Source of the DNA: a virus
DNA: 32,721 bases
Strand: one strand, 5' to 3'
IMG/VR virus record: IMGVR_UViG_3300034198_022597
Location: 1-32,721 of that record
The number at the start of each line of letters is the position of its first letter. The stretch's first letter is position 1. The notes beneath the pieces were generated by a model. That model did not search any database. It saw nothing but the letters and a program-made list of their open reading frames with translations, and was not told the origin of the DNA. Below are positions 5,183 to 32,721 of the stretch, one piece after another. The position numbers were made by a program, and so were the translations under genes.

Positions 5183-5426
5183 CAAACTTTTTTTTGTTAT
5201 TAATTTATTTGTAATCGGATATACATTAGGTCAGAATAGGTCAAAAAAAATGTCAGAAGAACATAGAAAAAATCCAACACTACATCAATACTTGAATAGA
5301 TTCAAAGAATTCTTTGATGAAAATAAGATAGAAAGTATTGAACAAGAATTTTTTAATTTAATTGATTTTGGAATGAGTCCAGAAATGGCTTTTGAATCTA
5401 TTACCTTTAATGGAGAACTAAATTGA
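5169..5426 (+). CDS. Hypothetical small protein with N-terminal membrane anchor
   Basis: Starting at the ATG at 5169, the 85-residue product has a hydrophobic N-terminal segment (LFFVINLFVIGYTLG) followed by basic residues (QNRSKK), which is the pattern of an N-terminal anchor, and then a helical acidic cytoplasmic part. It overlaps the previous gene by 14 bases. The ribosome-binding site is weak. A second in-frame ATG at 5250, with AGG upstream, would give a soluble 58-residue form; I cannot exclude it. No family is recognised. Confidence 0.6.
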   Translation: MKNGNKLFFVINLFVIGYTLGQNRSKKMSEEHRKNPTLHQYLNRFKEFFDENKIESIEQEFFNLIDFGMSPEMAFESITFNGELN

Positions 5427-19960: not shown

Positions 19961-20829
19961 GTAGTTATAAAGAGCAATATTATTCTCTCGCTGAATACGA
20001 GATACAAAACTTAATCTCCGAAACAAAGAAGGGGTCACGAAAAGCGCAGGAAGAGTTGCTGAAAGTATTTAGTAATTTTTTAACTAAGTATGTAGCCCTG
20101 TTGTATCACGCCAGGTATAACCTAAATGATTACGATATCAGAAGATTCGTATCACTATTCATTAAAGACCCCTATGCAAGATTTGCGCTAATGAAGAATA
20201 AGATTAACGGATCTACATTAAAAAATGTCAATGAAACAATGCGCGGCATACATTATATGACAAAAAGATATGGAGATGAGGAGGATATACGACAGACTGT
20301 TTATATGACCTTTTTCCAGTGTATCAGTAGATATGAAAAAAAGGACTCAGCTAAAGGTCCAATTCCATTTAGTGGATTTCTTTATAGTTACTTTTTTTAT
20401 CTGTTAAAGAAAAATGTAGACACCTTCCTAATTGATCAACTAGGAAGGAAAACCTTCCCTCTATTGGACGATGATGCAACAAGTGATGAAAGTGATGAGA
20501 ACTATGTCGTAGGTTTTAAAGCTGACCCGGTAGATATAAGCATGGAATATTTGCTTGCCACTGATAGAATAGATGAATTCTGGGTTGTTGGTGAGAGAAT
20601 TCAATCACCATTTGATAAACTGTCTATACAAGAACGGCAGTTATTAAAATGGAGATATGTTGATGGAAAAAGATCTAGTCAAATATCACTCATAATAAAT
20701 GAACACCCTAATACAATCAGGGAACACTTAAGTAAGATAAAAGAAAAAATTAGAGATATAATTGAACAAGAAAAAGATGATGAAACAATGTTGCAACTTT
20801 CTTATCTAATTAAAATGGAGAAACAGTGA
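19957..20829 (+). CDS. RNA polymerase sigma factor-like protein
   Basis: The 290-residue protein resembles a divergent sigma-70 factor. An N-terminal helical part includes GSRKAQEELLKVF. A region-2-like segment contains DEEDIRQTVYMTFFQCISRY (about 111-130) and a basic-aromatic stretch (GFLYSYFFYLLKK). After an acidic linker, a region-4 helix-turn-helix follows (LSIQERQLLKWRYVDGK, then SSQISLIINEHPNTIREHL). It would direct host RNA polymerase to phage promoters; candidates are the ATTACTAT elements before late genes. GAAGG with a 6-base spacer supports the ATG at 19957. The stop overlaps the next GTG. Confidence 0.82.
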   Translation: MSSYKEQYYSLAEYEIQNLISETKKGSRKAQEELLKVFSNFLTKYVALLYHARYNLNDYDIRRFVSLFIKDPYARFALMKNKINGSTLKNVNETMRGIHYMTKRYGDEEDIRQTVYMTFFQCISRYEKKDSAKGPIPFSGFLYSYFFYLLKKNVDTFLIDQLGRKTFPLLDDDATSDESDENYVVGFKADPVDISMEYLLATDRIDEFWVVGERIQSPFDKLSIQERQLLKWRYVDGKRSSQISLIINEHPNTIREHLSKIKEKIRDIIEQEKDDETMLQLSYLIKMEKQ

Positions 20830-21341
20830 ATTTACAATCGCTAGAAAAGCTTCAGGAACTACTGCAAGATTTTCTCGGACCACAACTAAAAGAGGTTATT
20901 GATGCATATACCAATGCAGATAATAACTATAAATACTTTATTGAAATACCCGAAACGGACATTGTGGATTTAGGTATAGAGAAAATAGCGTCTTTAGTTG
21001 CGCGAACTTCTAATGTATATGGTAGAGCTGCACGCTTTGCGGGCATGTCTAGAGCACAATACAAAATTCTAGAAGGTAGATATAAAAAAGTTTACAAATC
21101 TAATAGGGTGGGAAAAAATGAAGCTGAACGAGAAGCAACTGCAATGGACGCAGCAGAAGATGAATATTTTGCGCTAGTCACATGTGAAGCCATAGTTAGC
21201 TTGGCTGAGGCCATGGAAGCGTCAGCTAGAATAGCATCAGAATCAGCTAGAAAAATAATGGATAAAGTGCAATCAATGCAGGTCGCTGCATACAGAGAAG
21301 AAAAAGGTTCCTATCTGGAATCGGACTTCAGTACCTACTAA
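20826..21341 (+). CDS. Hypothetical helical protein
   Basis: A 171-residue, largely helical protein. After an N-terminal Leu-rich helix it has a basic middle (RAQYKILEGRYKKVYKSNR) and a long Ala/Glu-rich helix (EAIVSLAEAMEASARIASES). The arrangement, a Tyr/Lys pattern followed by a long helix, recalls UvsY-type recombination mediators of T4-like phages, but the similarity is only general and no UvsX is in the window. A GTG at 20826 overlaps the sigma-factor stop, with GGAG close upstream. No catalytic motif or membrane segment is visible. Confidence 0.7.
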   Translation: MNLQSLEKLQELLQDFLGPQLKEVIDAYTNADNNYKYFIEIPETDIVDLGIEKIASLVARTSNVYGRAARFAGMSRAQYKILEGRYKKVYKSNRVGKNEAEREATAMDAAEDEYFALVTCEAIVSLAEAMEASARIASESARKIMDKVQSMQVAAYREEKGSYLESDFSTY

Positions 21342-21353
21342 AGGATAAAAAAT

Positions 21354-21560
21354 ATGTTTATTGGTCATTACAAAAGTGTTAATACATCTGAAGAGTTTTA
21401 TTCTACAGAAAGAGAAGATCTTAACTTTCCAACACAAGTTGAATATAAAAGTAATAAATATCTATTAACAAAAACAATTCAAATATCTTCAAGTCTTAAA
21501 AAGAATTTAGCAGAGTCGGCAAAACGCTTTAACATAGATTATGATGTAAAGGTTGACTGA
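21354..21560 (+). CDS. Small hypothetical protein
   Basis: A 68-residue protein with mixed beta and helical character (QVEYKSNKYLLTKTIQISSS, then KKNLAESAKRFNIDYDV). AAGGA precedes the ATG. No family is recognised. The gene belongs to the sigma-factor operon. Confidence 0.68.
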   Translation: MFIGHYKSVNTSEEFYSTEREDLNFPTQVEYKSNKYLLTKTIQISSSLKKNLAESAKRFNIDYDVKVD

Positions 21561-21598
21561 ATAAACATGCCCAAATATTTAAGATTGTTTTTTTATTC

Positions 21599-22033
21599 AT
21601 GAATATAGAAGTGTTTTGCGATGGAGCCTCTAGGGGGCAGGGGCAGAAAAAAATAGGTGAGGCAGCGTGCTCCGCTGTCGTGTACCGCAATAGAAAAAAG
21701 ATAGCACAGTTTGCCAGAGGTCTTGGCCCAAGAACTAACAACGAAGCTGAATATGAAGCTGTAATAGCTGGACTTCTGATTTGTTCAATGGCAGATTTAA
21801 TAGATCCTATTATTTACACTGACTCAGCAGTAGTAGCTAATCAGGTTAATGGTAGATGGAAATGTAAAAGCGTAACACTCATGCCGTTACTTATGACAAT
21901 TGAAGAAATAAGAGAAGAATTTAATTTTAGAGTTATACAAGTAAAAAGATCTTTTGTTTGGGAACCAGATGCATTAGCAAATATATTTTTGGATGAATTG
22001 GAAATACGAAAAGAGAAAATAAATAAGACATGA
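21599..22033 (+). CDS. rnhA: Ribonuclease HI-like protein
   Basis: A 144-residue RNase H with the catalytic set D8 (FCDGASRG), E49 (NNEAEYEA), D75 (YTDSAVV) and D124 (WEPDALAN). It would cut RNA in RNA-DNA hybrids, such as primers made by the phage primase. A normal Shine-Dalgarno is missing before the ATG; a preceding 11-codon open frame (21567-21602) overlaps the start as ATGA and may provide coupled translation. The gene also overlaps the dNMP kinase start. Confidence 0.9.
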   Translation: MNIEVFCDGASRGQGQKKIGEAACSAVVYRNRKKIAQFARGLGPRTNNEAEYEAVIAGLLICSMADLIDPIIYTDSAVVANQVNGRWKCKSVTLMPLLMTIEEIREEFNFRVIQVKRSFVWEPDALANIFLDELEIRKEKINKT

Positions 22034-22833
22034 ATAACATTATGATAAATAAAAAAAGATTTCACAAGGACTACCCAATAGTCGTCGGACTTGCTGGAAA
22101 AGCTGCAACGGGCAAAACATCTGTTGCGGAAAAAATAGTTCCAAAGGCAGAAGTTAGCCCCGTTGCAAATCATATAAAATGGGATCATTTATTTTTTGCC
22201 CTACCCCTATATGAATTAGCCTCAGTTAAAAAGAACTCACTGGGTTTTAGGCAAAAAGATCGTCAACTATTTTCAATCCATGAAATAGTCTATGACATTT
22301 TTGGATCCAACGCCCTTGGTACAATCCCGGATTACGAATCATTTGCCCAATTAGTAAAAGATATATACAATCTTGCCATAGAGCCTGAAGGTATAAAGCC
22401 AAGATCTTTTCTGCAAAAAGCCGGAGATTTGTGCAGAGCACACGATGAAGAATGCTTTGCTAAATGGGGCGTTTTAAAGGCTAATAAATTATTTAGGTCC
22501 CATATGGGAACTACTGAATTTGAAGATTATGACATGCCGATGGCCATTATTATATCTGATGTCAGATTTGAAAATGAAGCCAAGAAGATATTGGACCAGC
22601 CTAATGGGCTAGTTATCTGCTATGAGGCATCTGACGACGTTAGAATCGAAAGAATGATGCGTCGAGATGGCTATGCTATGACTCCAGAACAGATGAATCA
22701 TAAATCGGAGCAAGAAATTGACTTGATAAAAGAAAAAGCTTCTGCTATAATTAACACCGACAACTTAAACATAGCGGAACAAGCATTAGCTACTGCAAAT
22801 TTAATTCAAACTTTTACGGACGTGTATGCCTAA
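22030..22833 (+). CDS. Deoxynucleoside monophosphate kinase-like protein
   Basis: A 267-residue P-loop kinase with Walker A GKAATGKT (23-30) near the N-terminus and, later, AIIISDVRFENEAK and DDVRIERMMRRDG, segments found in T4 gene 1-type dNMP kinases and relatives. It would phosphorylate dNMPs from dCMP/dUMP metabolism or host DNA breakdown to dNDPs. In T4 the related kinase also handles hydroxymethyl-dCMP, which matters given the odd ThyX homologue here, though that is inference. The ATG overlaps the RNase H stop (ATGA). Confidence 0.82.
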   Translation: MNNIMINKKRFHKDYPIVVGLAGKAATGKTSVAEKIVPKAEVSPVANHIKWDHLFFALPLYELASVKKNSLGFRQKDRQLFSIHEIVYDIFGSNALGTIPDYESFAQLVKDIYNLAIEPEGIKPRSFLQKAGDLCRAHDEECFAKWGVLKANKLFRSHMGTTEFEDYDMPMAIIISDVRFENEAKKILDQPNGLVICYEASDDVRIERMMRRDGYAMTPEQMNHKSEQEIDLIKEKASAIINTDNLNIAEQALATANLIQTFTDVYA

Positions 22834-23146
22834 GATAACAAAAACAGCAATGGAGCAGTCAACAGACTCTCCCCTAGACCAGGTGGTAAGTATTTTGAGT
22901 TCAGAGATTTCTATTTCGACTAATCCAGTTTTTATATGCGGAGTAAATAGGAAAATTAATATTGGCAACTTCGAGAACATAGATGTGTATGCAGGTATTA
23001 CTTTGCCATTAAATGACGTTTCTTTGGAAGATAAAGATAAGTTAACTGAAATTATCGAAGCTGCAGCTTCATATGGTTTCTCAATTGTTTCAAAAGAAAC
23101 AGGCGAAAGATATCAGTTAATTAAAGAATCACAACAAGGAAAATAA
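22826..23146 (+). CDS. Hypothetical protein
   Basis: A 106-residue protein. The centre is beta-rich (NPVFICGVNRKINIGNFE, IDVYAGITLPL) and is followed by a helix with many acidic residues. It is of unknown family. The ATG overlaps the kinase gene by eight bases. Confidence 0.7.
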   Translation: MPKITKTAMEQSTDSPLDQVVSILSSEISISTNPVFICGVNRKINIGNFENIDVYAGITLPLNDVSLEDKDKLTEIIEAAASYGFSIVSKETGERYQLIKESQQGK

Positions 23147-23188
23147 AAAAAACAATAGTTAGCTAACAAATATTGAAAAGGACAAAAA

Positions 23189-23500
23189 ATGATCAAGAAA
23201 TTAATAAATAAATTATTTAATAAAAACTCATCCACAAAAACTGGTGGACATGATTTGGATGATAAGAGTAAGGCAAAAGAGAGCAAGCCGATTGATTGGA
23301 CAACTGCTACCACCTCCGCTAATGCAGTAGCTAAAAATATAAAGATCACACCTGCTCATCCAGAAGATAAGGTTATCAAGGTAAATCCATCGACTTCCGC
23401 TAAGAAGCCGGGTAGACCAAAAAGCCAAACCCCTAAGCCCCATAGTGCTACAAAGTCTGTAAAAAAAGCAACGCCAAGCAATAATACGAATAAAAAATAA
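23189..23500 (+). CDS. Lys-rich protein with an AT-hook-like motif
   Basis: A 103-residue, low-complexity basic protein. The N-terminus is an amphipathic basic helix (MIKKLINKLFNKN), and the second half is rich in Lys, Pro, Ser and Thr. Residues 72-78 read KKPGRPK, matching the AT-hook core GRP flanked by basic residues, so it may bind the minor groove of AT-rich DNA. AAGGA precedes the ATG. It closes the sigma-factor operon before the hairpin at 23519 and introduces a series of small basic proteins. Confidence 0.75.
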   Translation: MIKKLINKLFNKNSSTKTGGHDLDDKSKAKESKPIDWTTATTSANAVAKNIKITPAHPEDKVIKVNPSTSAKKPGRPKSQTPKPHSATKSVKKATPSNNTNKK

Positions 23501-23518
23501 TACAACTAAATCAACTTT

Positions 23519-23570
23519 AATAGACTAGTTATATAGGGTTTTGATACTACTATATAGCTAGTCTATTATT
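23519..23570 (+). terminator. Long AT-rich hairpin, possible terminator
   Basis: 23519-23535 pairs with 23551-23567 over 17 positions, with one G-T pair, around a 15-base loop (GGGTTTTGATACTAC). A short T-rich tract follows (ATTTT). It lies between the Lys-rich gene and the next small gene. A TACTAT element (23548-23553) falls partly in the loop. Confidence 0.6.
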
Positions 23571-23584
23571 TTAAGGTGGTTTAT

Positions 23585-23731
23585 ATGACTGATAAAGGTT
23601 GGGGAAGCAAGACTTCTTCGCAAAACAATTATTTTAAGTTATTGAAAGATTCAGTTATCAATGTTATGGATACCCCCCGTAAGGGTGGATACTATTCAAG
23701 TCAGTGGAAAGCTTACAAAAACAAAAAGTAA
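23585..23731 (+). CDS. Lys-rich microprotein (48 aa)
   Basis: A 48-residue open frame beginning MTDKGWGSKTSSQNN and ending WKAYKNKK. AAGGTGG precedes the ATG. It is basic, with aromatic residues, no cysteine and no membrane segment. It is one of a set of short basic proteins with a Lys C-terminus in this region. The function is unknown; a virion or DNA-binding role is inferred from composition and position. Confidence 0.68.
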   Translation: MTDKGWGSKTSSQNNYFKLLKDSVINVMDTPRKGGYYSSQWKAYKNKK

Positions 23732-23815
23732 TCACTGCCATTAAATCGCAAAAATAATCTATATCAATAATTATTTTTTAGTACTAAAATTAAAAAAAAT
23801 AGAAAGAAGGAAATC

Positions 23816-23971
23816 ATGGCTAGCATGAACAAAAAGAACGATCCATTCCGTAAGCCTTTCCCCGGTACCATGGGCGACATTGGCGACAAGATTAATCCTA
23901 AGGGAACAGTAGCTCCCGCCAGTGGCGCTAAAAACTGGGCTTCAACAGTTAAGAAGACCGGCAAAAAGTAA
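23816..23971 (+). CDS. Lys-rich microprotein (51 aa)
   Basis: A 51-residue frame beginning MASMNKKNDPFRKPFPG and ending VKKTGKK. AAGGAAATC before the ATG gives a ribosome-binding site (GAAGGA). Gly, Pro and Lys dominate, suggesting a flexible, non-globular protein. Codons here (CCC, GGC, ACC) are more GC-rich than in neighbouring enzymes, as in highly expressed genes. Confidence 0.68.
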   Translation: MASMNKKNDPFRKPFPGTMGDIGDKINPKGTVAPASGAKNWASTVKKTGKK

Positions 23972-23973
23972 TT

Positions 23974-24105
23974 GTGGCAATAAGGAAGTTCATTTATATT
24001 AATGGACCTAGAATGGGAACCAACAATCAAAAGAGTGGTGGCCCCGTTATCTCTGGCATGCCAAAAAAGACTGGCTTTCCAAAGAAAAAGAAAAAAAAGA
24101 AATAA
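23974..24105 (+). CDS. Lys-tailed microprotein (43 aa)
   Basis: The frame gives MAIRKFIYINGPRMGTNN at the start and ends in seven Lys residues after GFP. The GTG at 23974 follows the previous stop by two bases and has no clear Shine-Dalgarno; an in-frame ATG at 24013 would give 30 residues. The Pro-Gly-rich middle and Lys end match its neighbours. Confidence 0.55.
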   Translation: MAIRKFIYINGPRMGTNNQKSGGPVISGMPKKTGFPKKKKKKK

Positions 24106-24132
24106 CTTTATTTTATTTACTTAGGAATAACA

Positions 24133-24372
24133 ATGGCTCAAATTAGAAAATCAAAAGATATGTTTCGCGTCGCTGTTCCAGGTGAAGCTGGTGATCATCC
24201 TCCAATTAAGAATGATCATGGTGAAAGATTCATAACTAAAAAGCGTCCTAATGAGATTGACCATATGGAAACTAAATGGAAAAATCCTCACGCTGGAAAA
24301 AATGTGAATGGTAAAAAAACACCTCAGTCTTTAGGAAAGAGTCCAACTAACGCTAAGCAAAAGATGAAGTAA
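24133..24372 (+). CDS. Small basic hypothetical protein
   Basis: A 79-residue protein rich in Lys, Pro, His and Asn, with a likely disordered C-terminal half (NVNGKKTPQSLGKSP). TAGGA before the ATG is a ribosome-binding site. The TAA overlaps the next ATG (TAATG). No domain is recognised; it belongs to the series of small basic proteins. Confidence 0.75.
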   Translation: MAQIRKSKDMFRVAVPGEAGDHPPIKNDHGERFITKKRPNEIDHMETKWKNPHAGKNVNGKKTPQSLGKSPTNAKQKMK

Positions 24373-24659
24373 TGCCTGCCAAAAAAGATTCACGCCTAAC
24401 TAATGCCGGTGTTTCTGGCTATAATAAGCCCAAGAAAACACCAAGCCACCCTACTAAGTCGCATGTTGTTGTGGCAAAGTCTGGTGATCAGGTTAAAACT
24501 ATTCGCTTTGGTCAACAAGGTGTTTCAGGCTCGCCAGCAAAAAAGGGCGAATCTGCATCAGACGCAGCAAGAAGAAAGTCTTTTAAGGCACGGCATGCAG
24601 CTAATATTGCTAAAGGCAAAATGTCAGCAGCATATTGGGCCAATAGAGTTAAATGGTGA
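24372..24659 (+). CDS. Conserved small basic protein, DUF6321-like
   Basis: The 95-residue sequence (MPAKKDSRLTNAGVSGYNKP, IRFGQQGVSGSP, RRKSFKARHAANIAKGKMSAAYW) is a pattern I recognise from uncharacterised phage proteins, probably the DUF6321 family. The Lys/Arg-rich C-terminal part with a Trp-rich end may contact DNA or the capsid, but its role is not established. Translation is coupled to the preceding gene. Confidence 0.72.
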   Translation: MPAKKDSRLTNAGVSGYNKPKKTPSHPTKSHVVVAKSGDQVKTIRFGQQGVSGSPAKKGESASDAARRKSFKARHAANIAKGKMSAAYWANRVKW

Positions 24660-24665
24660 CTAATC

Positions 24666-24929
24666 ATGGAAGCTGTTACTGTTGCCATAATTGCCGCCGT
24701 TGGGGCTATCCTCGCAGCGTTAGTTCAGAAAAGTAGATCAGAAAATAAAAGTGATCATAATACCGTCGCAGAGTTAATAGGCGACGTAAAAGATGAGATT
24801 TTACACCTGCATCACAAGGTTGATCATCTTGATCAGCAAGTTGATAAAGTCGATGACCAGATACATGACCACATGATGTGGCATTATAAAAAATCAAGTG
24901 AAAAAAAAATAAAATCAACGGAGGTATAA
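24666..24929 (+). CDS. Membrane protein with coiled coil, possible holin-like
   Basis: The 87-residue protein has one N-terminal membrane helix (VTVAIIAAVGAILAALV) followed by a long charged helix with heptad-like spacing (HHKVDHLDQQVDKVDDQ), which could form a coiled coil. One-helix-plus-coiled-coil proteins of this size are often encoded near phage lysis genes, where some act as holin or antiholin-like proteins. The neighbouring endolysin-type genes support such a role. The family is not certain. Confidence 0.62.
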   Translation: MEAVTVAIIAAVGAILAALVQKSRSENKSDHNTVAELIGDVKDEILHLHHKVDHLDQQVDKVDDQIHDHMMWHYKKSSEKKIKSTEV

Positions 24930-24931
24930 TC

Positions 24932-25063
24932 ATGGCCATGAAAAAGAAAGCAGCTGCACCTAAGAAAACAGCTTCGAAAAAGACAGCTGGTATGTCTGCA
25001 GCTCAAAAGAAACTTCCCCCCTTTATCCAGGCTGCAATAGCTAAGAAAAAGAAGAAGATGTAA
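24932..25063 (+). CDS. Lys/Ala-rich microprotein (43 aa)
   Basis: A 43-residue product, MAMKKKAAAPKKTASKKTAG followed by a short helix and a Lys-rich end (AKKKKKM). The composition is like the tail of histone H1 or HU-type basic tails. GGAGG (24920-24924) is seven bases before the ATG. It is the last gene before a terminator, and probably binds DNA or another polyanion. Confidence 0.7.
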   Translation: MAMKKKAAAPKKTASKKTAGMSAAQKKLPPFIQAAIAKKKKKM

Positions 25064-25079
25064 TTTAATCGTTTTAATT

Positions 25080-25119
25080 AAAGAGGGCTATGGCTACATG
25101 TCATGGCCCTCTTTTTTTG
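25080..25119 (+). terminator. Rho-independent terminator
   Basis: AAAGAGGGC (25080-25088) pairs with GCCCTCTTT (25106-25114); the inner bases extend the stem (25090-25094 with 25100-25104) and a run of T follows to 25118. It ends the microprotein operon. Confidence 0.9.
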
Positions 25120-25127
25120 CATATATC

Positions 25128-25135
25128 ATTACTAT
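25128..25135 (+). promoter_or_regulatory. ATTACTAT element, putative late promoter motif
   Basis: The octamer lies 41 bases before the ATG of the gene at 25177, just after the terminator. The same octamer occurs in three other intergenic gaps (26849, 28558, 32636). No good sigma-70 promoter is visible here. Confidence 0.4.
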
Positions 25136-25176
25136 AGGTATATCAATATTTATGTTTAATCGAAAGGCAAGAAAAT

Positions 25177-25386
25177 ATGGCAAAGCCAGCTGATAAAAAA
25201 TGGATTCAAAAGGCAATTAAAAGACCTGGGGCATTTACAGCTAAAGCTAAAAAAGCTGGCAAAACTCCAGCGGCTTTTGCTACAACCGTAACTAAAAGTC
25301 CAGGTAAATACAGTAAACTGACCGTTCAGCAAGCTAATTTTGCTAAGACTTTAAAAAAGATTACCAACAAAAACAAGAAAAGATAA
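25177..25386 (+). CDS. Small basic phage protein
   Basis: A 69-residue basic protein with KKWIQKAIKRPGAFTAKAKK and a C-terminal helix (KLTVQQANFAKTLKKI). I recognise the WI-KAIKRPGAF pattern from small proteins of environmental phages, where no function is known. AAAGG precedes the ATG. A virion or nucleoid role is inferred from composition. Confidence 0.75.
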   Translation: MAKPADKKWIQKAIKRPGAFTAKAKKAGKTPAAFATTVTKSPGKYSKLTVQQANFAKTLKKITNKNKKR

Positions 25387-25389
25387 ATA

Positions 25390-26085
25390 ATGCAGAGTAG
25401 GGTTTATACTGGAACTTCCGATGTAAAAGGTTTCATACACAATAAAAATGACGCTACGGAAGCCATGGTTGATTTTCTTAGTTATTGTTTTGGTATGAAA
25501 AAAGTCGGAACAATTGGAGATAGTTTAAATTCAGTTCACGCCACTGGAAGAGGATTCGACATTCGTTGTTATGATTACAATAAAAATGAGTGGTTAAATA
25601 GTGGTTTTGAAGAAAGAAATTGGAATTTAATAAACTACCTATACATGAATAGAGAATATCTTGGCGTAGAAGAAATTCATGACTATGTTGGTTTATATGT
25701 ATGGGGAACAATGACTCGATATGATGGCAGTGGTAGGGGCAGTGATGCTAATTATGGGGCAGGATATAGGTGTGATCGCGAAAATTATCAAGAAGCGTAT
25801 GCGCCCTTTGCATGGAAAAGATGGGATCTAGAAGCGCATAAGGCACACGAGGGAAAGAGCGTAGGATTAAAGCATATACACGTGGAAATGTCTCCAGCTT
25901 CAGTAAAAAATAAAGTTCAATTACTCTCTAAGTTAGATCTGTCAATAAAATCTTATTTTAGACTCTGGTGGCACACCACTGCATTTGTGGGTTCCGGACA
26001 AGGCACAAGCCTGTTGGGGACTAGACTCGTTAATCCAGTTACAATACCATCTAGGAAAATTACTGAAATACTAAAACGCATATAA
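25390..26085 (+). CDS. M15-like zinc peptidase (putative peptidoglycan hydrolase), copy 1
   Basis: The 231-residue protein contains NSVHATGRGFDIR with H50 and D57, the HxxGxxxD zinc motif of M15/VanY-type peptidases, a middle LGVEEIHDYVGLY segment, and KHIHVEMSP with H162/H164 and E166 as the distal zinc and catalytic residues. It is clearly related to the next gene. Such enzymes cut peptide cross-links in peptidoglycan; there is no signal peptide, so export would need a holin or a place in the virion. The C-terminal 50 residues are unrelated to any binding module I know. The ribosome-binding site is weak. Confidence 0.78.
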   Translation: MQSRVYTGTSDVKGFIHNKNDATEAMVDFLSYCFGMKKVGTIGDSLNSVHATGRGFDIRCYDYNKNEWLNSGFEERNWNLINYLYMNREYLGVEEIHDYVGLYVWGTMTRYDGSGRGSDANYGAGYRCDRENYQEAYAPFAWKRWDLEAHKAHEGKSVGLKHIHVEMSPASVKNKVQLLSKLDLSIKSYFRLWWHTTAFVGSGQGTSLLGTRLVNPVTIPSRKITEILKRI

Positions 26086-26097
26086 GATTAACATTTA

Positions 26098-26119
26098 ACT
26101 ACTTATTATTGAATAATAA
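26098..26119. repeat. Short palindrome in the gap before copy 2
   Basis: TTATTATT (26103-26110) and AATAATAA (26112-26119) are complementary around a central G, preceded by AACTACTTA, a weaker relative of the ATTACTAT element. The role is unknown; it is the only structure in the 70-base gap. Confidence 0.35.
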
Positions 26120-26155
26120 TAATGTCAATATTACAAAACAAAAAAGGTAAACTAT

Positions 26156-26845
26156 ATGCTTGACGCAACCGGTTCATCCCCTTTGCCGTGGACGGCTCCC
26201 AATACCAGATTATTTAACAAGTGGTACAATAGGCCATATACCGGAGCAACAGGGGGGAAGCAGGTGGGGCAACTAATGCCTGGAGTCAAATGGTTGTGCG
26301 ACAACCTTTGTTATTTTTTTGGATTTGTACAAAATGGTGGCACTGGTAACGAGTCAGTAATAACATCTGTACACTGGACTGGTAGAGCTTTTGATATCAA
26401 TTATAAAAAATCTAATGATTTAGATAAAGATTTTAGATTTCGTAATATAAATGTATTTTATTTTTTATCACTATATGCGGATATTCTTGGCGTAGAAGAA
26501 ATTCATGACTATTGTGGATTATATGTTCCGGGAACTAAAACAAAATTTGTTCCAGAGTACTCCAGGGGAATAATGGCTCCACCAGAAAAATATCCAGAAA
26601 GAAATATGTGGGGGGCTGGCTATAGATGTAACAGAGAGGGGAAATGGGAAGTGCCATATTTTTTTGGATGGAAGGTTTGGGACGAAATAGCCCATAAGGC
26701 ACATAACGGAAAAACAGTCGGAGACTCACATATCCACATAGAGGTGAGTCCATCTATGGCAGGCAATTTGTACGAAATGCAAAGAAAATTTGATTGGGCC
26801 ATTAGACATTACAGACCCATAACTACATGGGTAACTTTTGACTAA
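26156..26845 (+). CDS. M15-like zinc peptidase (putative peptidoglycan hydrolase), copy 2
   Basis: The 229-residue protein shares its core with the preceding gene: TSVHWTGRAFDIN (H73, D80), LGVEEIHDYCGLYV, GAGYRCNR, W-W-AHKAHNGKTVG and SHIHIEVSP (H192, H194, E196). It has a longer N-terminus and lacks the C-terminal extension. The order of motifs matches M15/M74-type metallopeptidases. The two copies may be a tail-associated lysin and a lysis enzyme, or have different cross-link specificities; that is inference. A Lys/Gly-poor ribosome-binding site (AAAAGG) precedes the ATG. Confidence 0.78.
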   Translation: MLDATGSSPLPWTAPNTRLFNKWYNRPYTGATGGKQVGQLMPGVKWLCDNLCYFFGFVQNGGTGNESVITSVHWTGRAFDINYKKSNDLDKDFRFRNINVFYFLSLYADILGVEEIHDYCGLYVPGTKTKFVPEYSRGIMAPPEKYPERNMWGAGYRCNREGKWEVPYFFGWKVWDEIAHKAHNGKTVGDSHIHIEVSPSMAGNLYEMQRKFDWAIRHYRPITTWVTFD

Positions 26846-26848
26846 CGC

Positions 26849-26856
26849 ATTACTAT
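26849..26856 (+). promoter_or_regulatory. ATTACTAT element, putative late promoter motif
   Basis: The octamer starts four bases after the stop of the preceding gene and ends 31 bases before the ATG of the endolysin at 26888. It is the only feature of the 42-base gap besides the AGGAGA ribosome-binding site. Confidence 0.42.
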
Positions 26857-26887
26857 TATCATGAATAACAAAATAGGAGATTAATAT

Positions 26888-27694
26888 ATGAATTTACCTT
26901 TTATCAAACTTATAGTACCTACAGCTCTTAGGCAGTATAAAAATGGTCAATTAGCTGACAGCGTTCTTGCGCCCATTAAAACTGGCGGAAAAATGTATGC
27001 CCCAGTTGCAACGGAATTTAACAAGCTGTACGACGCAGCTATTGCTGCTGGCATTAAGCTAAAGAATGTTGGCGATTACCGTTCATTTGAAGGTCAACTA
27101 TCCATGTTTATGGATCGCTATGTAACAACCGATACTGGTACTGGTGTAACCCGTCAATATGAGGGTAAGACCTGGTGGTTAAAGAAGGGCAAAGCTCCGT
27201 CGGCTGCTCCAGACCCTACTGGCGTTAAGGGTTCCAACCACGGTTGGGGCCTCGCTATTGACCTTGGCTACGATCAGGGTGGCAAGACCGCTTCCTTTGG
27301 TATAAACGTTCCTGCTTTCCAATGGATGTGCGAAAACGCTCCCAAGTATGGTTTCTATCTTCAGGGGGACAATCCGCAGTCTAAAGAGTTTGAGGCTTGG
27401 CACTGGCAGTATTGCCTAGGTGACAATGCACCCAATGGCACAACACAGACAGCTTCAGTAGCAGCACCCGCAGCTTCAGCTGGCGGTGGTATGCATTTTG
27501 ATTACCCAGGTACTCCAGTAGGTCTTGGTTCTAAAGGAGCGTCAGCTTCTTTAGTTCAGGCAATCATTGGTGCAAAAGCTGATGGTGATTTTGGCCCCAA
27601 GTCTGTTGCTTCACTCAAAGCATGGCAAACTGCTAATGGTCTAACTGCAGACGGCTCTGTCGGTCCTGTAACATGGAAGAAGATGTTCGGCTGA
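26888..27694 (+). CDS. Endolysin: M15 D-Ala-D-Ala carboxypeptidase (VanY-like) plus peptidoglycan-binding domain
   Basis: A 268-residue endolysin-type protein. The N-terminal M15 peptidase has SNHGWGLAIDLG (H118, D125) and EAWHWQY (E169, H172), the zinc and catalytic residues of VanY-type enzymes. A Thr/Ala/Pro linker (185-200) leads to a C-terminal PGB1-type peptidoglycan-binding domain (GSKGASASLVQAIIGAKADG, DFGPKSVASLKAWQ, DGSVGPVTWKKM). There is no signal peptide, so a holin is needed for release. Arg is mostly CGT/CGC and the gene is GC-richer than its neighbours, suggesting high expression or separate origin. AGGAGA precedes the ATG. The stop overlaps the lipoprotein start. Confidence 0.92.
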   Translation: MNLPFIKLIVPTALRQYKNGQLADSVLAPIKTGGKMYAPVATEFNKLYDAAIAAGIKLKNVGDYRSFEGQLSMFMDRYVTTDTGTGVTRQYEGKTWWLKKGKAPSAAPDPTGVKGSNHGWGLAIDLGYDQGGKTASFGINVPAFQWMCENAPKYGFYLQGDNPQSKEFEAWHWQYCLGDNAPNGTTQTASVAAPAASAGGGMHFDYPGTPVGLGSKGASASLVQAIIGAKADGDFGPKSVASLKAWQTANGLTADGSVGPVTWKKMFG

Positions 27695-27885
27695 TGCGTA
27701 AAGTAATTTTAGCATTAGTAGCTATGTTGGGTGCATTTTGCATGGGACTATTGAGTGGATGCAGCGATGCATACAGATACCCATGTCAGGATCCAACTAA
27801 TTGGGAGAGTGCGGATTGTAAACCACCAATTTGTACAGCTTCTGGAACGTGTCCAGAAGAGATATATGGGAGTGTTCCTCAATGA
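27694..27885 (+). CDS. Small lipoprotein
   Basis: The 63-residue product starts with a signal peptide (MRKVILALVAMLGAFCMG) and a lipobox L-L-S-G-C with the modified Cys at 23. The mature part is short, with Cys pairs (YPCQD, DCKPPICTA, TCPEE), and resembles small lipoproteins of unknown role that I know from environmental phages. It would be a lipid-anchored envelope protein. Next to an endolysin and upstream of a two-helix membrane protein it might be a spanin-like or exclusion protein. The ATG overlaps the endolysin stop (TGATG). Confidence 0.75.
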   Translation: MRKVILALVAMLGAFCMGLLSGCSDAYRYPCQDPTNWESADCKPPICTASGTCPEEIYGSVPQ

Positions 27886-28187
27886 ATGAAAAGAAAAGAT
27901 ATACAAATAGTGAAATAAAAGCTCGTATGGTTTTATTTGTCGGTGCGAGTTTAGCATTTACATTTATGGTCATTGTATGTGGAGTGATGTACGCTTTAGT
28001 GTTCGTCACTCAACCGATTAATCAGCAGAGTCCCAACGACAAAGCTTTTATTGATTCCCTGCTAGTTCCTATAGTTTTATTCTTGTCTGGTTGTTTAAGC
28101 GGAGTTCTCGCTGCAAACGGACTAAAGGATAAGGAAACAAAACCTACAGATAGTGGATATCAGATTTACGATCAAGATAAGAGTTAA
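27882..28187 (+). CDS. Two-helix membrane protein, possible holin or spanin partner
   Basis: The 101-residue protein has two membrane segments (VLFVGASLAFTFMVIVCGVM and LLVPIVLFLSGCLSGVLAA) joined by a polar loop, with a charged N-terminus (NEKKRYTNSEIKAR) and a polar, acidic C-terminus. Two-helix proteins of this size following an endolysin and a lipoprotein often are holins. The ATG at 27882 overlaps the lipoprotein stop (ATGA), which decides it over an upstream in-frame codon. The family is not known. Confidence 0.65.
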   Translation: MNEKKRYTNSEIKARMVLFVGASLAFTFMVIVCGVMYALVFVTQPINQQSPNDKAFIDSLLVPIVLFLSGCLSGVLAANGLKDKETKPTDSGYQIYDQDKS

Positions 28188-28189
28188 TC

Positions 28190-28348
28190 ATGGCTGAAAT
28201 GGTTTGGGATAATCCATCCCCTAAGAAAAAGTCTAAGAAATTAACGCCAAAATTAAAAGTGAAAGCAAAAGCTCGAGCAAAGGCAGCAGGGCGTCCTTAT
28301 CCAAATTTAATTGATAATATGGCAGTAGCTAGAAAAAAGAAAAAATAA
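28190..28348 (+). CDS. Lys-rich microprotein (52 aa)
   Basis: A 52-residue frame beginning MAEMVWDNPSPKKKSKKL, with a basic middle (KVKAKARAKAAGRPYPN) and a Lys tail (VARKKKK). The ATG is two bases after the preceding stop, and the TAA overlaps the next ATG (TAATG). It resembles the microproteins at 23585-25063 in composition and size but sits after the lysis genes. Confidence 0.68.
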   Translation: MAEMVWDNPSPKKKSKKLTPKLKVKAKARAKAAGRPYPNLIDNMAVARKKKK

Positions 28349-28557
28349 TGGATGATATGACTTTTGCCGGCTTTATGCCAGCAATGAAGAATATCGAAAT
28401 TACTCCACCAACTTCAATGATAACTACTGAAGGTGGATTAATTAGTGGTCATGTGATAAAATTAACTTTTGGAGATAATCAAGAAATGATTTTTAGCACT
28501 ACCGAAGAACAGCTACAGAAATTATTCTTTTTAATTTTAAAAACAGTTAATAAATAA
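28348..28557 (+). CDS. Small hypothetical protein
   Basis: A 69-residue protein with a beta-rich centre (GGLISGHVIKLTFGDNQEM) and a hydrophobic C-terminal helix (LQKLFFLILKTV). The family is unknown. It is coupled to the microprotein before it and is the last gene before a regulatory gap. Confidence 0.7.
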   Translation: MDDMTFAGFMPAMKNIEITPPTSMITTEGGLISGHVIKLTFGDNQEMIFSTTEEQLQKLFFLILKTVNK

Positions 28558-28565
28558 ATTACTAT
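28558..28565 (+). promoter_or_regulatory. ATTACTAT element
   Basis: The octamer begins directly after the stop codon at 28557. The next gene starts 105 bases later, so if it is a promoter the transcript has a long leader containing the hairpin at 28570. Confidence 0.35.
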
Positions 28566-28569
28566 TATA

Positions 28570-28615
28570 AAATGGTGGTGTGGTGTGACTTTAAAAGAGC
28601 ACTGCGCCACCATTT
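28570..28615 (+). other. Hairpin in the leader region
   Basis: AAATGGTGG (28570-28578) pairs with CCACCATTT (28607-28615), extended by one G-T and one G-C pair, around a 26-base loop. No T run follows, so it is not a standard terminator. It lies between the ATTACTAT element and an extended -10 promoter. Confidence 0.55.
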
Positions 28616-28616
28616 G

Positions 28617-28625
28617 TGTTATAAT
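28617..28625 (+). promoter_or_regulatory. Extended -10 promoter TGTTATAAT
   Basis: A perfect extended -10 box, TGT plus TATAAT (28620-28625), 45 bases before the ATG at 28671. There is no good -35 box. It is the likely start of the exonuclease-tRNA-glycosyltransferase transcript. Confidence 0.55.
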
Positions 28626-28670
28626 AGCTTAGAGCAATTTAATGCGTAAGCCAGACTGAAACAGGTACAT

Positions 28671-29429
28671 ATGGCAAAGATACTTTATTATGATATAGAA
28701 ACTGCACCAAACTTAAGTTATGTTTGGGGGCACTTTGAACAAAATGTTATTGAACACGAGCGTGAATGGTACTTGCTATGCATATCGTACAGATGGGAAC
28801 ATGAGGCTAAGACACAAGTGTGTGCTCTTGTGGATTTCCCTGAGACTTATGCAAAAGATCCAGAAAATGACATGCACGTTGCAAAAAAATTATGGGATCT
28901 TTTAGATGAGGCTGATATTGCAATTGCACACAATGGTGACAGATTCGATATGCGCAAAGCTAATGCAAGATTTGTGTACCATAATTTTGGGCCGGTCTCG
29001 CCAGTGAAACAAATAGATACATTAAAAACTGCTAGAAGATACTTCATGTTCAATAGCAATAAATTGGACAACCTTGGTAAGCACCTAGGCGTAGGTGCCA
29101 AGGTAGACACAGGCGGCTTTGCCACATGGGCTGGATGCATGCGTGGGGACATGAAGGCATGGAAGACTATGACAAAGTACGCCAAGCAAGACGTTGACTT
29201 GTTGCGCAATGTCTACATGAAACTGAGACCATGGATGGCTAATCATCCAAACCTTAATGTATATTCCGGAGAAAGCTGTTGTCCAACATGTGGATCAGAT
29301 GATTTGCAGCGTCGTGGACAACGATACACTCAGGTAGCTACCTATCAGCAATGGTACTGCAACTCGTGCGGAGCATGGAGCAGAACTAGAATGGTAGAGG
29401 ACGTAGAAAAGCCTGGCCTAGTTCCCTGA
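28671..29429 (+). CDS. DnaQ-like 3'-5' exonuclease with C-terminal zinc ribbon
   Basis: A 252-residue DEDD-type exonuclease: D8-I-E10 (YYDIETAP), D93 in AHNGDRFDM and Y-A-K-Q-D174 with its Tyr, the standard motif set of the RNase H-like exonucleases. The C-terminal 50 residues carry a zinc ribbon (C204, C207 and C230, C233; CPTCGS, CNSCG), which may bind DNA. Whether it proofreads the phage polymerase, whose own PHP domain looks intact, or trims ends in recombination is not known. It follows an extended -10 promoter. The stop lies nine bases before the tRNA gene. Confidence 0.88.
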   Translation: MAKILYYDIETAPNLSYVWGHFEQNVIEHEREWYLLCISYRWEHEAKTQVCALVDFPETYAKDPENDMHVAKKLWDLLDEADIAIAHNGDRFDMRKANARFVYHNFGPVSPVKQIDTLKTARRYFMFNSNKLDNLGKHLGVGAKVDTGGFATWAGCMRGDMKAWKTMTKYAKQDVDLLRNVYMKLRPWMANHPNLNVYSGESCCPTCGSDDLQRRGQRYTQVATYQQWYCNSCGAWSRTRMVEDVEKPGLVP

Positions 29430-29437
29430 CTAATTTA

Positions 29438-29528
29438 GGAGAGGTGCCAGAGTACGGTTGAATGGAACATCCTGCTAAGATGTCGATATGGTAAAATGTA
29501 TCCGTGGGTTCAAATCCCACTCTCTCCG
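29438..29528 (+). tRNA. tRNA-Ser, anticodon GCT
   Basis: A complete class II tRNA fold: acceptor GGAGAGG (29438-29444) with TCTCTCC (29521-29527), including one G-T pair; D stem CCA/TGG; anticodon stem ACATC/GATGT (29467-29471 with 29479-29483) with loop CTGCTAA, anticodon GCT at 29474-29476; a long variable arm closed by GATA/TATC; T stem GTGGG/CCCAC with loop TTCAAAT. The discriminator base is G and the CCA end is not encoded. The long variable arm fits serine, and GCT reads AGC/AGT codons, which are frequent here. It is the only tRNA found in the window. Confidence 0.93.
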
Positions 29529-29556
29529 CAAAAGTTTTTTTCACAAAAAGGAAGCA

Positions 29557-30303
29557 ATGAGAAATCAAGAAGTTTCAGTTATATTAACTAGTTATAATAA
29601 GCCAACTTATTTAAAAAAAGCTATTGACTCTGTACTGAGCCAAACATATGATGATATACACTTAATCATTGCTGAAGATAATTCTCCAGACCGACAAGTG
29701 CATAAAGTTATTAAAGACGCAATTAAGTCTAATTCGACAAAGAAAAGAATTACATTTTTTAACTCTTTCGTTAAAGATGAGGACAGATTCAAAACTGCTC
29801 GTTACGCTACACAAATTAATACGGCAGTAAGAACATATTCTAATTCTAAATATATTTGTTATTTAGCTGATGATGATTTTTATTATCCAGATATGATTCA
29901 GGAAATGATAAATAGCGCAGAAGAACACAACCATGATGCGGTATTCTGTGCTCAGCATATCCTTGATGTAGATGGAAATATTGATGGTGGCGGATTAGAT
30001 GGTAGAGGCGTTAGATGGTTCGACGATCCCCTTGAACGCGGCGCAGATAAATTAGATCACAACCAGGTAATGACAACTAGATTTTTATTTGATATAGTTA
30101 ACGGATGGGAAGATCACCCTCATACTTGGTCTGGAGCAGACGCTTATTTTTTTGATAGAATAGAAAAAAAGGGTTTTAAGTTTTATCCCATAGATTGTAA
30201 AAAGCCTCTTCAGGGAAAAGTGTATAGACAAAAATCAGTTCAATGGAATATTGTTAATGGATATCTTCCGAACGGAGATACTAAGCAAGGAGAAAATAAG
30301 TAA
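29557..30303 (+). CDS. Family 2 glycosyltransferase
   Basis: A 248-residue GT-A glycosyltransferase with SVILTSYNKP at the start, AEDNSPD (39-45), and YLADDDFYYPDM (102-113) containing the DxD metal site. The second half includes GGGLDGRG and DAYFFDRIEKKG. GGAAG just before the ATG at 29557 fixes the start; the frame opens further upstream but across the tRNA gene. It begins a run of four sugar-related genes. The stop and the next ATG overlap by one base. Confidence 0.85.
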   Translation: MRNQEVSVILTSYNKPTYLKKAIDSVLSQTYDDIHLIIAEDNSPDRQVHKVIKDAIKSNSTKKRITFFNSFVKDEDRFKTARYATQINTAVRTYSNSKYICYLADDDFYYPDMIQEMINSAEEHNHDAVFCAQHILDVDGNIDGGGLDGRGVRWFDDPLERGADKLDHNQVMTTRFLFDIVNGWEDHPHTWSGADAYFFDRIEKKGFKFYPIDCKKPLQGKVYRQKSVQWNIVNGYLPNGDTKQGENK

Positions 30304-31181
30304 TGTCAGTAAATGTCTGGGCCGTTGCAATGGCGAAAGATGAAGGCGATATAATTGATCACACGATGAATCATTTCGCTGCCAATGGTGTTGATGGAAT
30401 TATTATCGCAGACAATATGTCAAATGATAATACTCGCGAAAAAATGGAAGAAGCTAAAAATAATATTGGTTTAAAACTCCCTAATGTGCAGGTAATCTTA
30501 TTGGAAGATAATGTAATTGAATATACTCAATCGCAAAAGATGACTAGTTTAGCAGCAAAAGCGAGAGAGTACGGGGCAGAATGGGTTATTCCTTTTGATA
30601 TCGATGAAATTTGGTATTCACCAAACGCTACATTAAAAGATGCGTTTACAGATCTCAGTGCTGAAAATTTTGATGTATACAAAACTTTGTATACTAATCA
30701 TTCTATTACAGAGTTTGACCCAGAAGGAAAATCTCCATTTCATTCCATGATACATAAGTGGAATCTACCGACAAATCATAAAAGCTGCTTTAGATTTAGG
30801 TCTACAGATTCTTATGTAAGAATTTCAAACGGTAATCACTTTGTACAACATAATGGTTGGGATATAAATCAACACGTAAAAGTAGCCATAGATGACTACG
30901 GTCATGATAAAATTGTTTTTGGCCCACAGACTATTCAGATAAGACATTTCCAGTGGAGATCGTTAGATCATTTTATGAGAAAAATACTCAATGCATATCA
31001 AGCCTGTAAGGCGCTCGGTCCTGGTGCCGATCTTTACAATGGTGCTGCTTGGGCAGAGCATTTTAAGGTATACGAATCTGAAGGAATAGATGGGTTAGTA
31101 AAGTTTTTTGAGAAAAATATTTTAGTACGAAATGATCTTGGATCACTCATTTGTGATCCTGCCCCTATAAAGGAAGTGTGA
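30303..31181 (+). CDS. Glycosyltransferase, GT2/GT92-like
   Basis: A 292-residue protein that starts with VWAVAMAKDEGDII and has IIADNMSNDNT (34-44), VIPFDIDEIWY (95-105) with the DxDE metal site, and a Trp-rich middle. This is the pattern of the Glyco_tranf_2_4 and GT92-type group seen in phage and bacterial cell-surface loci. A conserved QIRHFQWRS segment follows. Donor and acceptor are unknown. It is directly coupled to its neighbours. Confidence 0.82.
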   Translation: MSVNVWAVAMAKDEGDIIDHTMNHFAANGVDGIIIADNMSNDNTREKMEEAKNNIGLKLPNVQVILLEDNVIEYTQSQKMTSLAAKAREYGAEWVIPFDIDEIWYSPNATLKDAFTDLSAENFDVYKTLYTNHSITEFDPEGKSPFHSMIHKWNLPTNHKSCFRFRSTDSYVRISNGNHFVQHNGWDINQHVKVAIDDYGHDKIVFGPQTIQIRHFQWRSLDHFMRKILNAYQACKALGPGADLYNGAAWAEHFKVYESEGIDGLVKFFEKNILVRNDLGSLICDPAPIKEV

Positions 31182-31182
31182 T

Positions 31183-31839
31183 ATGAATAAAGTTTCGCTC
31201 GTAGTAATAACTGATGGAAGACAAGATTGCATTACTCGAACAATAGAATGTTTGAATAGAGTAATTAATTATCCATTTTTTGAAAAAATTATAATAAATG
31301 ATTCTGGAGACATGAACTATCATTTGTATTTGTCTTCAGCTTTTCATGAATTTAAAGTAATATCACATGAAAATAGAAGAGGTTTAGCTGGAGCAGTTCA
31401 GTCTGCTTGGTCAAATATTTCAAATGATAGTGAATATATCTTTCATTTAGAAGACGATTTCTTATTCAATACTTATGTTAACATTGATCATATGATAGAC
31501 CTTTTGAATAAAAAGGAATCGCTAGCACAAATGGCTTTAGTTAGAGCTTCGGTTAATCCACCAGAAGAAGAGGTTGGTGGATTTGTATTCCAAAATCTAC
31601 AGGATTATCATCAAAGAGATGGGTGGTTTGACCATCAAAGATTGTTTACTTTAAATCCATCTGTTTACAAAAAACAACTAACAGAAATTGGTTGGCCAGA
31701 CCACGGTGGGGAACCCGAATTCACTAGTAAACTACACTCTATAGATAAGGAATACTGCTTTGGCTTTTGTGGTGACATCTATGACAAGCCGTATCTTACT
31801 CATATAGGAGGAAGAAGAACTGAAGGCTGGTTTTTGTGA
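31183..31839 (+). CDS. Glycosyltransferase-like protein, GT2 fold
   Basis: A 218-residue protein with VSLVVITDGRQDCITRTIE, INDSGD (38-43), and FHLEDDFLF (87-95), where the E-D-D-F stands at the usual metal site. The second half (GGRRTEGWF near the end) is less familiar. It is a plausible GT-A glycosyltransferase whose acceptor is unknown. The TGA overlaps the GTG of the next gene. Confidence 0.75.
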   Translation: MNKVSLVVITDGRQDCITRTIECLNRVINYPFFEKIIINDSGDMNYHLYLSSAFHEFKVISHENRRGLAGAVQSAWSNISNDSEYIFHLEDDFLFNTYVNIDHMIDLLNKKESLAQMALVRASVNPPEEEVGGFVFQNLQDYHQRDGWFDHQRLFTLNPSVYKKQLTEIGWPDHGGEPEFTSKLHSIDKEYCFGFCGDIYDKPYLTHIGGRRTEGWFL

Positions 31840-32549
31840 GCGTTAATCAAATAACTGTAAACAAAAATAATGTTTCATTCAAAGTAGAAGACAGTGAAGA
31901 GCTTCACCAAGATGTCGGTTATAATTTTTGGTCAGAAAAATATAGCTCTTGGGAACCAAGTACTTTCCAGGTACTTGATAAATATTTATCAAAAGATAAA
32001 GATTATTTAGACATAGGTTCATGGGTTGGGCCAACTGCAATCTACGCTTCTTTCCATTGTAGACAAGTGGTAGCCGTAGAACCTGATCCTACAGCTTATC
32101 AAATACTTCAAAAAAATATATCCTTAAATTCCATAAACAATATAACAAGTCTAAATAAGGCAGCCTCTAAACTGAAGACAGCTTTTCTGGAATGTAATAA
32201 ATTTTTTGGAGACTCAATGAGTAGAGTATCTCAACAGGTTAATTCTGGGGTTAGTGTTGAGACAATTGGCTTAGATGAATTAATTTCTTTAGGTGATTTT
32301 TCTTTAATTAAAATTGACATTGAAGGTCATGAATTTGAATTAGTTAAAGAATACATAGATATTTTGGATGAGCATAAAATACCGCTTCTTCTATCTACTC
32401 ACGCATGTTTTTTTTCTGATGGAAAATATCTAATGAAAGAACTTATGAAAAGTTTTTCTAATGTTAAAAATATTTTTAATGAATTCGACAAAGAAGTAGA
32501 TCCAGATGAAGTGCAATATAACCTTGGAAGTTACCTTTTTCTATGGTAG
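31836..32549 (+). CDS. FkbM-family methyltransferase
   Basis: A 237-residue SAM-dependent methyltransferase with YLDIGSWVGPTAIY (57-70, motif I), VAVEPDP (79-85), and LIKIDIEGHEFELV, the FkbM family signature. FkbM members methylate hydroxyl groups, often on sugars. Coupled to three glycosyltransferases, it probably caps or modifies a glycan. Start is a GTG at 31836 overlapping the previous stop. The C-terminal VQYNLGSYLFLW is typical of the family end. Confidence 0.85.
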   Translation: MSVNQITVNKNNVSFKVEDSEELHQDVGYNFWSEKYSSWEPSTFQVLDKYLSKDKDYLDIGSWVGPTAIYASFHCRQVVAVEPDPTAYQILQKNISLNSINNITSLNKAASKLKTAFLECNKFFGDSMSRVSQQVNSGVSVETIGLDELISLGDFSLIKIDIEGHEFELVKEYIDILDEHKIPLLLSTHACFFSDGKYLMKELMKSFSNVKNIFNEFDKEVDPDEVQYNLGSYLFLW

Positions 32550-32635
32550 TTAGTAATGTGCGTGATCGCACGATAGAAGTAGGTCTCCTCAGTAGGAAAA
32601 TAAGGAAGTTTGGCGAATATATTTAGATTAAACAC

Positions 32636-32643
32636 ATTACTAT
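32636..32643 (+). promoter_or_regulatory. ATTACTAT element, putative late promoter motif
   Basis: The octamer lies 34 bases before the ATG of the gene starting at 32678, in a 128-base gap that also contains a short hairpin (GTGCG/CGCAC with loop TGAT, near 32560). No other promoter-like sequence stands out. Confidence 0.42.
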
Positions 32644-32677
32644 ACTCCCAGATGTATTGAATATCTAAGGAGTCAAA

Positions 32678-32721
32678 ATGGCCGGTAAAAAGCCCGCAAA
32701 GAAAAATGTTTCGAATTCACC
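32678..32721 (+). CDS. Lys-rich protein, 5' end only (partial)
   Basis: An ATG with a good AAGGAG site upstream begins a frame that reads MAGKKPAKKNVSNS to the window edge. The Lys/Ala start is like the small basic proteins at 23189-25386. The rest of the gene is outside the window, so neither length nor function can be given. Confidence 0.55.
   Translation, partial: MAGKKPAKKNVSNS

Follow-up and report, generated by a model that had tools for sequence, protein, structure and literature searches.

The DNA inside tailed phages is usually described as naked and neutralised by cations. Here we report on an array of genes for very small, Lys-rich proteins in the 32.7-kb virus record IMGVR_UViG_3300034198_022597 of IMG/VR (36% GC), the whole of which is called the window in the following, and on the possibility that the products of this array are packaged together with the genome.

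The closest described systems are found in rather different viruses. Mass spectrometry of CsCl-purified virions of the cyanophage S-CREM2 identified seven peptides of gp160 and four of gp137 (PMC10665884, Table 3). In S-SCSM1, for which a virion proteome has been determined (PMC9602691), ORF29 carries the record label "virion protein", which we read as detection by proteomics; an earlier study had called this protein type, T4-GC119, merely hypothetical. VP2 of SSV1 is a structural virion protein, for which homologs in bacterial viruses were noted earlier (PMC9608457), and for phi-crAss001 a structure shows the domain of gp45 that corresponds to CARG1 attached to the portal, within the capsid (PMC10172136).

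We propose, with a probability of roughly 0.52, that the array represents a changing set of basic microproteins that are made late and packaged in the capsid alongside the genome, where they would serve as DNA-binding filler or as cargo. The argument is that protein units of the same kinds occur inside the particles of other viruses, so that the array proteins are probably packed in the shell with the DNA.

Layout and coding status of the array

The basic proteins are named k1 to k9. The genes of k1 to k8, with one membrane protein among them, occupy 23189-25386, and k9 follows downstream at 28190. The features of the array are:

23189-23500, + strand: k1, 103 amino acids (aa), net charge +16
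23519-23567, + strand: conserved hairpin (RNA fold) between k1 and k2, which probably serves in termination or processing
23585-23731, + strand: k2, 48 aa, net charge +7
23816-23971, + strand: k3, 51 aa, net charge +8
23974-24105, + strand: k4, GTG start, 43 aa, net charge +13, Lys run at the end
24133-24372, + strand: k5, 79 aa, net charge +10
24372-24659, + strand: k6, 95 aa, net charge +17, PHROG 7595
24666-24929, + strand: small membrane protein with one N-terminal hydrophobic stretch, not basic, net charge -4
24932-25063, + strand: k7, 43 aa, net charge +14, motif KKLPPFIQAAIAKKKKK
25080-25114, + strand: intrinsic-terminator-like site separating k7 from k8, a 15-bp stem with a T-run behind it
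25177-25386, + strand: k8, 69 aa, net charge +19, PHROG 20603
28190-28348, + strand: k9, 52 aa, net charge +14, PHROG 34011

The isoelectric points of k1 to k9 range from 9.9 to 11.4. A first-pass annotation, made from the sequence alone, had placed a Lys-rich array of at least seven genes here; the location stands and the count is eight. Two outlying members of the same style had also been suggested. The one at 28190 is k9; the one at 32678 is of another style, its open reading frame (ORF) being cut by the window end and its full-length relative being a Cys-rich, Zn-ribbon-like protein of 67 aa with CPTC...FCSRNC.

To count basic small ORFs a fixed rule was applied, which asks for a length of up to 150 aa, a K+R share of 17% or more and a net charge of +6 or more. 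All nine that occur in the window lie within 23189-28348, which corresponds to 9 out of 12 small ORFs there compared to 0 out of 22 elsewhere (Fisher p 4e-6, the k4 slot being counted through an overlapping frame). In the closest relative, a genome of 126 kb, 10 out of 13 matches to the rule fall in the same array. For k4 the automatic caller chose the overlapping frame 24002-24124, and the frame that is conserved in relatives is k4 (23974). Shine-Dalgarno sites are good for most members, as the first pass had stated for the array in general, and weak for k4 and k6, both of which are close-coupled to the preceding gene. The GC-richer codons mentioned there were found in k2, k3, k4 and k7, with a GC content at third codon positions of 0.40-0.55, and not in k1, k5, k6, k8 and k9 (0.25-0.33).

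Selection was estimated as the ratio of nonsynonymous to synonymous substitution rates (dN/dS) from pairwise Nei-Gojobori counts on pairs with less than 60% synonymous difference, giving rough pooled values without a tree. Across every family tested the ratio is 0.07-0.51, namely 0.07 for k6, 0.12 for k8, 0.13 for k9, 0.23 for both k2 and k7, 0.29 for k5, 0.43 for k1 and 0.51 for k4. For k3, which has a 98% identical homolog at the same place in the related locus L092, comparison with this single relative gave a proportion of nonsynonymous differences of 0.01 and of synonymous differences of 0.30. The array members are almost certainly real genes. In k7 and k9 the DNA is nearly or fully identical to that of L092, with no synonymous difference, while 14-60% of the synonymous sites differ in the other array genes; this near-identity next to diverged neighbours indicates recent mosaic exchange.

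Conservation and turnover of the families

The same genes in the same order were found by tblastn in many IMG/VR loci, on contigs of up to 268 kb; a nucleotide search of 20000-32721 against phage records gave no match. The array keeps its position in a clade of freshwater phages, of which 34 loci were taken as representatives; each of these has 5-11 basic small ORFs between two anchor genes. About 20 sequence families occur across these 34 arrays, in sets that change between phages. With synteny and a synonymous bias both seen, the expectation of separate coding microproteins conserved as a unit is borne out. The microproteins are alike, as had been said of them, in composition only: most families are mutually unrelated in sequence, i.e. 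they are not duplicates.

The k7 family has 36 members and is present in 33 out of 34 representatives, and the k4 family has 28 members in 27 of them; tblastn relatives were found in 41 loci for k4 and in 10 for k5. For k9, which matches PHROG 34011 (expectation value E 1e-21), presence was recorded in 9 out of 80 IMG/VR loci around DUF6321 genes. The arrays of the relatives contain DUF6321 proteins (72.3 bits, cut-off 28.5), DUF6496 proteins, a CWKGY family, the families f4 and f6, and two families with weak matches, below the cut-off, to the two halves of DUF5872. For the window proteins themselves Pfam gave sub-threshold matches only, and NCBIfam gave none for the proteins scanned.

A further hint towards function comes from k1, which holds in its C-terminal region the AT-hook-like core KKPGRPK (GRP flanked by basic residues). 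In 24 out of 34 loci the first array ORF, the counterpart of k1, contains GRP[KR], compared to 0.04 expected by shuffling; among the other array ORFs it occurs in 1 out of 391. Judging by this motif, the AT-hook core probably lets k1 bind in the minor groove of AT-rich DNA.

Correspondence to modules of virion proteins

Four families of the relatives' arrays (f4, f6, CWKGY and DUF6321) correspond to tandem modules of single large T4-like cyanophage proteins. Profile-profile comparison of array family and cyanophage module gave E 2.7e-14 for DUF6321, 4.4e-11 for CWKGY, 3.2e-6 for f4 and 5.4e-5 for f6, compared to 0.18 or worse in mismatched controls, except for k9 against f6 with 0.012. In S-CREM2 gp160 and gp137 only the f6 module scored (independent E-value 0.0022), the other modules being read by eye. 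A comparable array with relatives of k8, f4, f6 and DUF6321 lies approximately 3-5 kb from the capsid gene in the pelagiphage HTVC027P, and such an array stands directly behind the capsid and cement genes in DSL-LC04. To our knowledge, virion proteomics has been reported for neither of these two phages.

The k8 protein matches PHROG 20603 over its full length (E 8.1e-19, profile positions 2-59 of 59) and is predicted to form four helices, with a predicted local distance difference test score (pLDDT) of 83. Its profile finds a full-length relative, gp110, in the Thermus phage P74-26 (E 4e-24) and also matches HTVC027P gp44 and proteins of S-EIVl, Rhizobium phages and crAss-like phages. A first tblastn search of phages with k8 gave no match, possibly due to low-complexity masking, and the P74-26 version used as query did give matches. 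Among the crAss-like proteins the match is to residues 309-354 of cargo protein 1 of cr108_1 (37.6 bits), in which a CARG1 domain (153-286, Pfam E 2.9e-58) lies directly ahead of the k8-like module. As k8 is without this portal-binding domain it corresponds to the accessory module only, and phi-crAss001 gp45 gave no significant match to k8. With SSV1 VP2 (from NC_001338) k8 has the N-terminal KW[IV]QKAIKRPG in common, with E 0.0014 among approximately 2,400 ORFs and 15.9 bits compared to 13.2 for the best of approximately 2,000 shuffles. The Pfam family Fusello_VP2_Capsid scores k8 with 18.2 bits, below its cut-off of 27, and over residues 7-19 only.

The most conserved member is k6, with 36 invariant columns in an alignment of 43 sequences. 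Residues 2-95 match PHROG 7595 in full (E 9.9e-41, profile positions 2-96 of 96), the predicted model has a pLDDT of 79, and relatives are present in at least 598 confirmed IMG/VR stretches and in 43 phage records. In many phages the neighbours of k6 are head genes. The nearest downstream gene of at least 100 aa is head closure Hc3 in 19 out of 55 IMG/VR loci, a count given without a background rate, and other downstream neighbours include portal, head morphogenesis and protease families.

Some candidate identities of k6 were rejected. Membership in DUF6321 reached 20.8 bits in Pfam (cut-off 28.5) and E 0.18 in hhalign; apparent k6 fusions in the loci L018, L034 and L062 are out-of-frame readthrough upstream of the normal start; and Foldseek matches to two kinds of protein from uncultured phages, with the names ChaB and XkdF (E 0.07-0.1), were unverified by sequence.

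Taken from these homology and fusion relationships, several members may well be present in the virion. A polyanion is a likely binding partner of the array proteins. We infer the following course for this phage. Late in infection very small basic proteins, in a set that changes between phages, would be made and would enter the virion, inside the capsid beside the genome. DNA or another polyanion would be bound via tails rich in Lys and via short modules of helical or beta type, so that the packaged DNA could be neutralised or organised and the internal space filled, and some members, k8 first, may leave with the DNA at ejection. Modules of these kinds are fused into one larger virion protein in other phages, and here there is one gene per module. 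The charges of the nine proteins sum to approximately +118. A genome of 126 kb has about 252,000 phosphates, of which 100 copies of each protein would neutralise about 5%; at this number the proteins could organise the DNA, condense it in places or take up space, and most of the DNA would be neutralised only at very high copy number.

Transcription units and surrounding genes

The array comprises more than one transcription unit: k8 is separated from k7 by a strong terminator-like site, and k2 from k1 by a conserved hairpin. The latter is long and AT-rich (fold -31.2 kcal/mol, z -7.2) and is kept in relatives; in the loci L092 and L090 it is replaced by a GC-rich stem with a T-run. The membrane protein at 24666-24929 has tblastn relatives in 66 loci, is kept inside the array and belongs to PHROG 32850 (unknown function).

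Gene functions in the window were named by reading the translations, except for those confirmed by PHROG (holin, DNA polymerase, a sigma-like factor and an endolysin-like gene at 26888-27694). Nucleotide-metabolism and replication genes lie on the left side; on the right a lysis-like block is followed by glycosyltransferase-like genes. Several of the latter and one methyltransferase-like gene were read at 5423-6214, 7717-8409, 29488-31839 and 31836-32549.

Among the relatives, seven loci (L087, L090, L094, L096, L098, L136 and L138) carry an acidic ORF of 447-471 aa (net charge -10 to -15) between k7 and k8, and in L154 the array is followed, up to about 16.7 kb, by a run of acidic ORFs (approximately 180-270 aa, net charge -9 to -18). 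Two adjacent small genes of L228 resemble the two halves of a 132-aa protein of the pelagiphage Hodr; neither passed Pfam. Genes like those of the array are sometimes missed by annotation, as the first pass had expected: a relative of f4 in DSL-LC04 (OR003939.1, approximately 1786-2025) and a relative of k6 in SIO1 (NC_002519.1, 24065-24235), both conserved small basic genes, are unannotated in the public records.

Weighing of the explanations

Several observations weigh against packaging in the virion. Proximity to capsid genes, a further idea of the first pass, finds no support in this clade: the array spans 5.8-10.2 kb of the 126-kb relative, in which the capsid gene is located at 96.5 kb and the terminase gene at 113 kb. 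(The capsid search worked with an HK97-type model; a T4-type model matched nothing in the large relatives or in controls.) The direct neighbours of the array in this clade are lysis-type peptidases. In P74-26 k8 lies two genes after the holin, beside lysis genes, and k6 adjoins lysis genes in cobaviruses and S-EIVl. The k8/VP2 alignment is limited to 13 residues, and SSV1 VP2 is reported as dispensable. We found no experimental virion detection of the window's own nine families in the literature, and searches for relatives of k6, k8 and the cyanophage protein among solved structures gave weak matches only. Tailed phages are, moreover, generally held to make little use of basic proteins for charge neutralisation (PMC3281028). 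The earlier head-internal reading is partly supported, by homology to virion proteins and to head gene modules of other phages, and not by capsid proximity in this clade.

An unlikely explanation, though the best of the alternatives, is that the proteins have their role inside the host cell, late in infection, binding host or phage DNA, RNA or ribosomes and compacting the nucleoid or shutting off host expression, their presence in the virion being incidental. The AT-hook core, the basic composition and the distance from the capsid gene would fit, and there are known cases of small phage proteins changing host expression (PMC11323111). However, related modules are fused in virion-detected proteins and in a crAss-like cargo protein, and relatives are located in the head modules of unrelated phages.

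The position by lysis genes, far from the capsid gene, leaves room for a lysis or host-targeting role. As cationic lysis accessories the proteins would bind membrane lipids, teichoic acids or peptidoglycan and aid the adjacent peptidases in the manner of antimicrobial peptides. The main array stands directly ahead of three tandem peptidase-like genes (25390-27694), the first two related to each other (tblastn 41%) and only the third matching endolysin PHROGs; in P12053L k6 adjoins the endolysin region, in S-EIVl it lies two genes ahead of the lysozyme, and the place of k8 near the P74-26 holin points the same way. We consider this role improbable, as the basic members show by eye no obvious signal peptides or long hydrophobic stretches, the same families lie within head modules in pelagiphage and P22-like genomes, and the large fused forms are virion proteins.

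Equally improbable is a hot spot of small late genes with unrelated jobs and no common system, in which the shared composition reflects nothing more than the need of small late proteins to reach DNA or the capsid. Fast turnover (about 20 families, 5-11 per phage), families mostly unrelated in sequence and terminator-like sites that break up the run would agree with it. The basic bias is, however, almost confined to the array locus, and in cyanophages several of the families are found together once more, as tandem modules of a single protein. That the frames are non-genes, Lys-rich by chance in AT-rich DNA as the 36% GC might suggest, is refuted by selection and synteny: dN/dS is well below 1 in the families tested, frames and order are conserved, and k6 is highly conserved.

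If packaging with the genome holds true, some aquatic phages package their DNA with dedicated, conserved, tiny basic proteins. This would open a way into large "unknown" families (at least 600 IMG/VR stretches for k6 and at least 600 for DUF6321), which tend to escape gene callers and standard virion proteomics. More speculatively, tailed phages of fresh and sea water might share an interchangeable kit of small, basic, DNA-binding modules, present as arrays of single microproteins or joined in one virion protein, as a "virion chromatin", parts of which (the VP2-type motif, the weak DUF5872-like halves) would reach archaeal and possibly giant eukaryotic viruses.

Comparison with known systems

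Basic virion proteins and separate modules are already known or partly known. For arrays of exchangeable microproteins and their correspondence to the modules of one virion protein, we found no description in the limited literature searched. The T4-GC119-type proteins of cyanomyoviruses (S-SCSM1 ORF29, S-CREM2 gp160 and gp137), from two phages with virion proteomics, contain f4, f6, CWKGY and DUF6321 in tandem. They differ in being one large multi-module protein where the window has separate genes, and their modules occur only in the relatives' arrays, none being from the window's own nine families. The runs of separate small basic genes of f4, f6 and DUF6321 type in HTVC027P (gp44-gp52) and DSL-LC04, to which HTVC027P adds a k8-type gene, are similar in organisation; unlike the array in the window they lie in or near head modules, and their membership is different.

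Like k8, VP2 of SSV1 (Fuselloviridae) is small and very basic, with the N-terminal KWVQKAIKRPG and a basic C-terminal end; but the first 13 residues alone align, and VP2 is a single gene, not an array, of an archaeal spindle-shaped virus. Crassvirus cargo protein 1 (phi-crAss001 gp45 type) has in cr108_1 a k8-like module just behind the portal-binding domain and is, unlike k8, a large ejected protein. In functional terms, with no sequence relationship claimed, the array may be compared to adenovirus VII, baculovirus P6.9 and the basic virion proteins of chloroviruses, where many basic proteins are likewise packaged with double-stranded DNA, although in eukaryotic viruses.

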